Positions 2,815 through 22,287 of a stretch of 25,339 bases of DNA are shown in pieces. The stretch covers positions 1-25,339 of the IMG/VR virus record IMGVR_UViG_3300042861_001814; one strand, 5' to 3'. The stretch is from a virus. The notes under the pieces are model-generated. The model was given only the letters and a program-made list of their open reading frames with translations. It did not search any database and had not been told where the DNA came from. The position numbers and the translations under genes were made by a program. How positions within the stretch are numbered: position 1 is the first letter of the stretch; each line of letters begins with the position of its first letter.

Positions 2815-3160
2815 CCAAGACGATTTTTTGAGCCTTGCAAAGCGTGATTTGGCCGTCGAGCCGGTCACGGTCAAGGGTCGGCAATACTTCATCCATGAGC
2901 TATCCGAATCGGATGCGGCTAACATGGAAGTCGAATTGCAGACCAAGAAAGGCTATGACTGGACTGCGCATCGGCGGGTGATGGTTGCCTACTGCCTTCG
3001 AGACGAATCGGGGCAGCGGGTTATTGCAGATCCTAACGTACTGCGAGACCTTCCCAGGTCGGTTGTTGGGCCCCTTTACGATCAGTGCTTGGAGATCAAC
3101 AAGTACGACCAGGGCGAAATCGAGGCCCTTGCAAAAAAATCAGAAAGAGCCGACGCCTAA
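2807..3160 (+). CDS. Tail assembly chaperone, G-like (zero-frame product)
   Basis: A 117-residue acidic protein. I choose ATG 2807 (MSSQDDF) over an in-frame ATG at 2798; both overlap the previous gene. The location between tail tube and tape measure, the size, the mixed alpha/beta N-terminal part and the overlap with a -1 frame downstream reading frame identify it as the lambda gpG-type chaperone that coats the tape measure during tail assembly. The gene ends 21 bases beyond an A AAA AAA heptamer at 3133-3139, where part of the ribosomes should slip to make a longer product. The family name is inferred from arrangement more than from sequence motifs. Confidence 0.7.
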   Translation: MSSQDDFLSLAKRDLAVEPVTVKGRQYFIHELSESDAANMEVELQTKKGYDWTAHRRVMVAYCLRDESGQRVIADPNVLRDLPRSVVGPLYDQCLEINKYDQGEIEALAKKSERADA

Positions 3161-20855: not shown

Positions 20856-20862
20856 GACCCCA

Positions 20863-21041
20863 ATGAGGCTGGTCCACCTCGGCAAAGGTGCTTGCTATCT
20901 ACCGGCAAGAATCCCGCTAAACGGACTGGTGCGCGGATCGTGCCGGGTTTAATCGGCCCAAACGACCGTTGGCAAAGCGGGGACTAACCTCCGACCGCTT
21001 GCCCCCAGGGTCGCTCGTTCGAGAGGGCGGGCGGCTCTTTT
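20863..21041 (+). ncRNA. Candidate structured leader RNA with attenuator-like end
   Basis: This 227-base gap (20856-21082) has no convincing gene but many helices. GCTGGTCC (20868-20875) can pair with GGACTGGT (20923-20930) and enclose two hairpins, ACCT/AGGT (20876-20889) and CTTGC/GCAAG (20891-20909), a three-way junction. A further hairpin GCGCG-GAT-CGTGC (20931-20943) follows. AAGCGG (20975-20980) pairs with CCGCTT (20995-21000), which competes with the terminator at 20995-21041. This looks like a regulatory RNA, but I recognise no known riboswitch class. A 29-residue ORF at 20863 without a ribosome site is less likely. Confidence 0.4.
20995..21041 (+). terminator. Rho-independent terminator overlapping an antiterminator
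   Basis: CCGCTTGCCC (20995-21004) pairs fully with GGGCGGGCGG (21025-21034), ten pairs with two U-G wobbles, and CTCTTTTA follows. It can close the helicase-methyltransferase transcript or regulate the next gene. Its 5' arm is shared with the competing AAGCGG/CCGCTT hairpin. Confidence 0.55.
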
Positions 21042-21082
21042 ACGCTCCGGGTGGGGCGGTTTAACCTGAAAGGAAACATGAA

Positions 21083-21361
21083 ATGGCAGAATCGAAATTT
21101 ACTCCGGGGCCTTTAGTTGCTACACAAAACGAAACGGTTAAAGGCTTGTGGGACGTGCGATCCGATAGGGATTTTTTGGGCGTTGCGTTTGACGAAAGCG
21201 CACAAGCCAACGCGGAACTATGGGCCGACGCTCCAAGGTTGCTTGAGGTACTGCGAACGCTTCACGATTTCGCTTTGCCGTTACGGGACAGAGGCCTAGC
21301 GGCAGAGTCCGAGCAAGCATTCGCAGACGCTAGGGCGTTACTCGAAAAACACGGCGGCTAG
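21083..21361 (+). CDS. Hypothetical phage protein
   Basis: A 92-residue protein after AAGGAAAC. FTPGPLVATQNETV, then SAQANAELWADAPRLLEVLRTL, matches a widespread uncharacterised phage pattern TPGPW...ANAxLIAAAPxLLEAL. No function is known to me. The C-terminal half is helical. It stands alone between two structured noncoding segments, downstream of the possible attenuator. Confidence 0.65.
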   Translation: MAESKFTPGPLVATQNETVKGLWDVRSDRDFLGVAFDESAQANAELWADAPRLLEVLRTLHDFALPLRDRGLAAESEQAFADARALLEKHGG

Positions 21362-21398
21362 GTTATCCAGGTCGGATGGAGTTTTCAAGGATTCAACA

Positions 21399-21539
21399 AT
21401 GTCTAAAATGATCGCGTCAGGTTTGACCGCCAGACGAACACACAATCCCCCTCGGTGCATTTCTAGGCGTATCTACGCCAAGGCGGTCAACCTATGCACC
21501 GGGGGGGCTTTATCCACAGGGGCGAACCATGGCTGGTGA
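21399..21539 (+). CDS. Doubtful 46-residue ORF across the inverted repeats
   Basis: ATG 21399 has AAGG about nine bases upstream and runs to TGA 21537-21539, overlapping the initiator start. The product is basic with odd composition (ARRTHNPPRCISRRIYAKAV). It spans the interleaved inverted repeats, so the open frame may be accidental or may be a leader peptide that influences the RNA fold. Kept as a low-confidence alternative to pure regulatory DNA. Confidence 0.25.
   Translation: MSKMIASGLTARRTHNPPRCISRRIYAKAVNLCTGGALSTGANHGW
21419..21507 (+). promoter_or_regulatory. Interleaved inverted repeats with pseudoknot topology
   Basis: AGGTTTGACCGCC (21419-21431) pairs with GGCGGTCAACCT (21482-21493) apart from one bulged T. 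CCCCCTCGGTGCAT (21447-21460) pairs with ATGCACCGGGGGGG (21494-21507) over 14 pairs with one G-U. The order is A, B, A', B', with A' directly abutting B'. Between B and A' lies a perfect hairpin GGCGTATCTACGCC (21466-21479). It precedes the initiator gene and a DnaA box, so an origin or a translational control RNA are both possible. Confidence 0.6.
21510..21518 (+). promoter_or_regulatory. Perfect DnaA box
   Basis: TTATCCACA matches the bacterial DnaA box consensus exactly, 10 bases before the initiator-like gene. A partial copy (TTATCCAGG) lies at 21363-21371. A single 9-mer can occur by chance; context raises its interest. Confidence 0.45.
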
Positions 21540-22287
21540 TTGGATCAAGATCGAGCATGGGCTATTGGGCAAGCCAGAAGTTATGCTACTGGCCGACACG
21601 CTCGACGCTTCGCCCCATGAAGTGGTAGGGCATCTAGTCGCGTTTTGGCTTTGGGTGGACCTGAATCTGTCCCCAGATTGTCCCCAAGTGAAGGGGACAA
21701 AAAAGGGACTAGATAGGGTTGCAGGGAGGGACGGGTTTGCAGACGCCCTGGTTTCGGTCGGCTGGTTGTACGTTGAGGACGGCGTAGTTTCTATTCCTGG
21801 GTACGAGGTCCACCTGTCGAAAAGCGCGAAAGAACGTGCAAAAGGCCAGAAAAAGAAGGCTATGCAGCGGATAAAGCTGTCCCCTGAGAAGGGGGACAAA
21901 AAGGGGGACAAAACCGGGACGGAACAGGGGACCAGAGAAGAGAAGAGAAGAGAAGAGTATTCAAATATAGATACCCTGCCCGAATGGCTCAAAAAGGATT
22001 GGCTCCGATGGCTGGACTTTCGATTTGCCAAAGATGGGCAGTGGATGCCGGAGGCCCAAGCCGACGCGGTGATTATGGACTTGCTCCGAAGGGGTGAATT
22101 CAAGGCACTCAAGGACATCGAGTTTTCAATCCGCATCGGGGCGAAGAACATTTGCCATGATGACGGCGGGCAGGGCTTGCTAAAGCCGGTCGGCAGCCAA
22201 GCGGCAGGAACCCAATCCGGCAGGAAGCTAACCAACGCAGAAAAGACCCTCAAGCTCATCGAGGAAATGAACAATGAAAGTATCTGA
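21529..22287 (+). CDS. Phage replication initiator, O / replisome-organiser-like
   Basis: A 252-residue protein. DWIKIEHGLLGKPEVMLLADTLDASPHEVVGHLVAFWLWV (residues 4-43) and SVGWLYVEDGVVSIPGYEVH look like the N-terminal winged-helix domain of phage replisome organisers, which bind the origin. A Lys/Glu-rich linker (about 100-145) follows, then a helical C-terminal part (DWLRWLDFRFAKDG onward) that should bind the helicase loader. In lambda O the origin iterons lie in the linker-coding part; here too the linker region carries repeated GGGGACA words. The stop overlaps the start of the probable helicase loader gene. ATG 21529 has a weak AGGGG site. Confidence 0.65.
   Translation: MAGDWIKIEHGLLGKPEVMLLADTLDASPHEVVGHLVAFWLWVDLNLSPDCPQVKGTKKGLDRVAGRDGFADALVSVGWLYVEDGVVSIPGYEVHLSKSAKERAKGQKKKAMQRIKLSPEKGDKKGDKTGTEQGTREEKRREEYSNIDTLPEWLKKDWLRWLDFRFAKDGQWMPEAQADAVIMDLLRRGEFKALKDIEFSIRIGAKNICHDDGGQGLLKPVGSQAAGTQSGRKLTNAEKTLKLIEEMNNESI
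21667..21973 (+). other. Candidate replication origin inside the initiator gene
   Basis: TGTCCCC or its complement GGGGACA occurs at 21668, 21679, 21693, 21878, 21892 and 21904, with near copies at 21705 and 21927, in two clusters of mixed orientation. A purine tract of repeated GAGAA (21934-21957) is followed directly by AT-rich TATTCAAATATAGATA (21958-21973), a plausible unwinding element. The order iterons, purine tract, AT-rich segment resembles the lambda-type origin in gene O. Confidence 0.5.

Follow-up and report, generated by a model that had tools for sequence, protein, structure and literature searches.

A family of crossing-helix pseudoknot RNAs in phages with a predicted terminator as one of its helices

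Comparative sequence analysis identified two crossing repeats in front of a phage replication initiator gene as a member of a real, previously unnamed family of pseudoknot RNAs of about 100 nt. The window, i.e. the whole stretch of DNA that was analysed, is a virus record of 25,339 bases; 15 further members were found in and aligned from other viral contigs, which makes 16 members including the window in about eight sequence groups, and every member contig is of metagenomic origin. The plan of the element is unusual, because two helices cross each other, each of them comprises about one helical turn or more, and one of them is predicted to be the terminator of the transcript. The family is well supported and absent from Rfam, and its members probably act as gene switch or small regulatory RNA.

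The original prediction had placed two long inverted repeats at 21419-21507, and both its coordinates and its pair counts were reproduced by reading of the sequence and by a script (Table 1). Helix A (P1) consists of 12 Watson-Crick pairs and one bulged U, and helix B (P2) has 14 pairs including one G-U. As claimed, the 3' arms A' and B' abut exactly with a gap of zero, and the perfect hairpin between the repeats corresponds to the 5-bp P3 with the loop AUCU, which sits between B and A'; the pairing order is A-B-hairpin-A'-B', with helices A and B crossing. The view that such matches are very unlikely by chance was also supported, since shuffled sequences score lower and the same plan is found again, with compensatory changes, in sequences that otherwise differ. 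A generic scan for A-B-A'-B' patterns gave a score of 62 for the window, compared to 59 for the best dinucleotide shuffle (395 kb of loci, both strands). A descriptor with hairpin and T-rich tail found 17 matches in 0.91 Mb of real sequence, all of them family members with some contigs counted twice, and none in 1.8 Mb of shuffled sequence, i.e. twice the real amount; this descriptor was written after the members had been seen, hence these numbers measure its specificity and not its sensitivity.

Table 1. Features of the element and its flanks in the window (position 1 is the first letter of the window).
Feature	Position	Strand	Basis or remark
Predicted -35 box TTTTCA	21382..21387	+	promoter scan of all members, compared with GC-matched random positions
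Predicted -10 box TAAAAT	21404..21409	+	16-nt spacer; ends 9 nt before P1
P1 5' arm (A), one bulged U	21419..21431	+	sequence and script
J1/2 linker, unpaired, A/C-rich, 15 nt	21432..21446	+	family: 12-23 nt, 79% A+C
P2 5' arm (B)	21447..21460	+	sequence and script
J2/3 linker UUCUA	21461..21465	+	family consensus NUCUU
P3 hairpin GGCGU-AUCU-ACGCC, 5 bp	21466..21479	+	covariation in the family
P1 3' arm (A')	21482..21493	+	sequence and script
P2 3' arm (B'), predicted terminator stem	21494..21507	+	U-tract after B' in other members
Eroded U-tract CUUUAU	21508..21513	+	compared with CUUUUUU in L011 and L016, GUUUUU in L061
Start codon of the gene for an O-like replication initiation protein (21529-22287, phrog_2509)	21529..21531	+	21 nt after P2'

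Paired substitutions in related phages, which had been proposed as a check of the repeats, were found in each of the three helices, and none of the 16 members has a helix that is disrupted without a compensating change. In the hand-made structural alignment of these members all pairs of P1 (178), P2 (232) and P3 (76) are standard, several pair types occur at most pair positions, and the arms differ widely among the eight or so groups. In a plain MAFFT alignment 82.5% of the cells pair, compared to 70.8% after shuffling and 35-52% after sliding. When the alignment was fitted to P2 and P3 alone, pairing was 84.3% against 67.0% in the shuffled control, and the covariation score was 0.487 compared to 0.193 for shuffled and 0.06-0.14 for slid sequences, whereby the shuffles overstate the significance because the member sequences are related. 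Diversifying selection was considered and rejected, because the arms change faster than the promoter only between the groups of the window and L061, and the relation is reversed elsewhere.

The pairs also indicate which strand is under selection. Together, P2 and P3 of the 16 members contain 24 G-U pairs, and A-C mismatches do not occur. This bias argues for the RNA of the plus strand as the selected molecule and not for the other strand or a DNA cruciform. The earlier argument that the G-U pair of the window fits an RNA better than a DNA palindrome agrees with this bias and with the paired substitutions. Hence, from the two possibilities that had been weighed, RNA or origin, the first was upheld and the second was not, and the predicted promoter in front and the predicted terminator in helix B had been overlooked. 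A DNA element, either a replication origin or an operator palindrome, is extremely improbable. It would be in line with the consensus DnaA box at 21510-21518 next to the adjoining initiator gene and with the lack of G-U pairs in P1. However, apart from the window only L089 has a DnaA box nearby, the variant TTTTCCACA, and the other 14 members have none; the element also precedes genes that do not encode initiators, P2 contains G-U pairs in the absence of A-C mismatches, and two copies in one phage differ in their arms. Because the DnaA box is not conserved, the origin reading fails, and the conserved initiator or DnaA boxes of a phage origin were not found at the element. All P1 pairs of the 16 members are of the Watson-Crick type (178 of 178, zero G-U), and P2 has 22 G-U among its 232 pairs; the purely Watson-Crick P1 hints that its arms may have a second role. 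As a separate observation, all six GGGGACA/TGTCCCC words of the window fall into two clusters inside the initiator gene, 21668-21699 and 21878-21910, which resemble the iterons of lambda-O type origins, while their total number alone is not unusual.

Among near relatives according to the initiator gene, L011, L014 and L016 carry the element, whereas most (L002-L004, L006-L009, L013 and L015) lack it and have about 30 nt between the preceding stop codon and the initiator. L061 contains a diverged copy with the leader kept and with different arms that still pair (GGTTGCAAGCCC/GGGCTTGCAACC and CCCCCGACGGTAT/ATGCCGTCGGGGG), its hairpin being TGGTGCG-TACT-CGCGCCA. Pattern scans and a covariance model added L062, L083, L088, L089, L096, L099, L111, L130, L136 and L176; L198 is a second copy in the phage of L130, the arms of both copies being unrelated, and a scan with a downstream gene of 273 aa added L222/L224. 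The pattern matches L063, L065-L070 and most of L071-L178 were rejected as chance. Regarding isolated phages, blastn with nine elements gave no credible match, and none was seen upstream of the related initiators of five such phages. Two scans of bacterial genome contigs gave no true member; searches of 398 genomes for the RNA model and of 347 for the 273-aa family were likewise empty, an outcome that carries little weight. Rfam 15 at gathering score did not match the window or 12 loci with members or candidates, and up to E=5 merely one unrelated weak match (21007-21094) appeared near the element of the window. The earlier remark that no named RNA class has this plan therefore holds against Rfam 15. 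Since Rfam gave no match, and since RydC and the HK022 put RNA share its features only in part, the element is placed in none of the named families compared.

The family members share the order predicted sigma-70-like promoter, P1, linker, P2, NUCUU linker, P3, P1', a junction of 0-2 nt, P2' and U-tract. The promoter score of the members is 10.3, compared to 7.0 (sd 0.9) for GC-matched random positions, TANAAT is kept at -10 in most members, and the best -10 box ends 9-14 nt before P1 in 15 of the 16 and 21 nt before it in L088. L130, L176, L136 and L198 have strong predicted promoters, and those of the window group are weaker; the predicted RNA start in the window is around 21415-21417. A U-tract after P2' is kept in nearly all other members, and helix B together with this tract is predicted to be an intrinsic terminator in the family. 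With the predicted promoter ahead of P1 and P2' running into the U-tract, the pseudoknot (about 95-105 nt) is predicted to be essentially identical with the terminated transcript. The U-tract of the window is weak, hence its own terminator may be poor. As in an intrinsic attenuator, the family has a G+C-rich stem and U-tract before a co-directional gene, weakly so in the window; an antiterminator sharing bases with the terminator was not found, P1 and P2 having none in common. Their arms never overlap in any member, and both are strong helices. The sequence of the J1/2 linker varies, and its length is sufficient to span stacked P1 and P2 in every member, estimated with 2.8 Å per pair and 6.2 Å per link, which agrees with both helices existing together in such a model but falls short of proof.

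Among 13 measured members, 12 have a co-directional start codon 18-27 nt past P2', and in the remaining one the distance is 52 nt. In most members this gap is too short for a promoter plus ribosome site, hence RNA for the downstream gene must pass the terminator and the element should control this gene in cis. The likeliest of the readings considered, deduced from the sequences and about as likely to be right as wrong, is that the element is a terminator gated by its pseudoknot, which controls the downstream gene in cis. P1 would be made before P2' emerges. On topological grounds alone, a closed P1 would hinder the wrapping of B' on B over 13-16 bp and favour read-through; if P1 were held open, P2 could form and transcription would stop. 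Once transcription has ended, the free 5' end could be threaded through so that P1 closes, and the result would be a stable RNA that is locked at both ends. Whichever of P1 and P2 closes first may in this way decide between read-through and termination, and read-through should be easier in the window due to its eroded U-tract. Against gating, the arms lack the competition for bases that is typical of ordinary attenuators, the downstream genes vary, and the U-tract of the window is poor; furthermore, a ligand pocket, leader peptide or antisense partner that could set the switch was not found. Gating, if true, would mean that control depends on the topology of a pseudoknot and not on a choice between alternative pairings.

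The downstream genes include two initiator families, the 273-aa family, and DUF669-like, ParB-like and GIY-YIG genes, whereby DUF669 and ParB were assigned by eye. The element is directly upstream of the 273-aa family at all six loci (five distinct phages). This family of phage proteins of 271-279 aa, e.g. L088 13050-13868 (-) and L130 1748-2584 (+) with relatives, lacks a Pfam match, and tblastn against isolated phages gave none. The constant downstream toxin gene of a type III toxin-antitoxin RNA was not found, the downstream families being unrelated. Some related phages carry the cassette and others lack it where the neighbouring genes are the same. This variable presence, the different genes that follow, the two different copies in one phage and the coincidence of predicted RNA start and end with the pseudoknot would suit an autonomous sRNA gene acting in trans, i.e. 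a cassette of promoter, pseudoknot and terminator with RydC-like stability, whose linker or loops bind protein or RNA of the host or a competitor and for which the downstream gene is a mere neighbour. We consider this the main rival, a possible though somewhat doubtful reading, because the element is always co-directional and near a start codon, leaving the neighbour behind its terminator, and because a conserved exposed seed is missing, the linker being A/C-rich but variable. A trans target in the same phage was rejected, since complementarity did not exceed that of shuffled RNAs, the longest shared words being no longer. If true, trans action would reveal a phage regulator not known before. 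Both proposals are compatible, because the terminated product of a gated terminator would itself be such an RNA.

The short distance from P2' to the start codon in most members and the retention of all pairs in the window copy despite its eroded U-tract could also point to a translational regulator. In this case a phage protein would bind the pseudoknot before the ribosome site, or the pseudoknot would trap the ribosome, and the presence of the U-tract would be incidental. Such a regulator is unlikely, because nearly all other members retain the U-tract, and the downstream proteins come from unrelated families, making autoregulation by each product unlikely. The window also contains an ORF of 46 codons (21399-21539) with a good ribosome site that crosses the pseudoknot and overlaps the initiator start with its end. 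A leader-peptide system, built on such an ORF of 46-48 codons through the structure, would profit from the frame being open in the window, L011, L016 and L061. Nevertheless, it is very improbable: the leaders of L083, L088, L089 and L096 have no start codon while their RNA is intact, which also led us to reject control of the repY-repZ type, the ribosome site is located inside the predicted promoter, between its -35 and -10 boxes, and thereby upstream of the predicted RNA start, and the peptide is little conserved in L061. A peptide search with the small ORF gave nothing significant.

Several known systems resemble the element in part. The preQ1-II riboswitch and HDV-like ribozymes have the same order S1-S2-hairpin-S1'-S2', a pseudoknot with an inserted hairpin, with short stems and conserved binding or catalytic nucleotides; in contrast, the arms of the element are long and variable, with few conserved bases and without Rfam match. 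P4 CI, P1 C4, pT181 and IncI repY-repZ control termination or translation by RNA structure before replication or early genes; they work through antisense partners, through alternative arms that overlap or through a leader peptide, whereas none of these was found here. The enterobacterial sRNA RydC is a pseudoknot of two crossing stems with a U-rich 3' end, which is destabilised when the pseudoknot is broken, the mutant being predicted to form a 5' stem-loop and a strong terminator hairpin (PMC4337610). The element shares the crossing stems and the U-rich 3' end, but has much longer helices and the additional P3 hairpin, is phage-borne and is always located just upstream of a gene; the RydC covariance model did not match within the Rfam scans of the window and the 12 loci. 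Unlike in RydC, a long 5' seed is not expected, because the predicted RNA start is only a few nt before P1. The HK022 put RNA, a phage element of about 70 nt with two stem-loops near the start of the early transcript, affects termination in cis by suppressing later terminators (PMC9378689). Location and bearing on termination are similar, but our element is a pseudoknot containing its own predicted terminator, and it has two crossing helices and one hairpin instead of two consecutive stem-loops near the RNA start.

Long A-B-A'-B' repeats before initiator starts were also observed in quite different phages, in L042 (2874-2985; 27-bp B helix, no U-tract), in L041 (2871-2975), and in L028/L033 and L032 some 100 nt before position 3001. 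Three loci outside the family, L041, L028 and L032, have crossing repeats before initiators, whereas none of 180 shuffles and two of 166 other places showed them. These repeats, including that of L042, hint at a wider class that may include the family. A rather unlikely reading is that the family represents a new class of switch in early and replication genes of diverse phages, in which an intrinsic terminator is interlocked with a helix at the 5' end of the RNA. Termination would then be decided by topology, depending on which of two crossing helices without common bases is the first to close, and not by competition for bases; the repeats of L041, L042, L028/L033 and L032 may be distant versions of it. 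Finally, another noncoding stretch of the window, about 190 nt long (20856-21042) and intergenic before a gene of 92 aa, is conserved with 76-93% identity in many related phages, some of which lack the pseudoknot, and has no Rfam match. Its consensus fold has 57 pairs, five of them changed on both sides, the single-sequence fold has a z of only -0.46, and it ends with a terminator-like hairpin and UUUU; it is probably another unnamed structured RNA.
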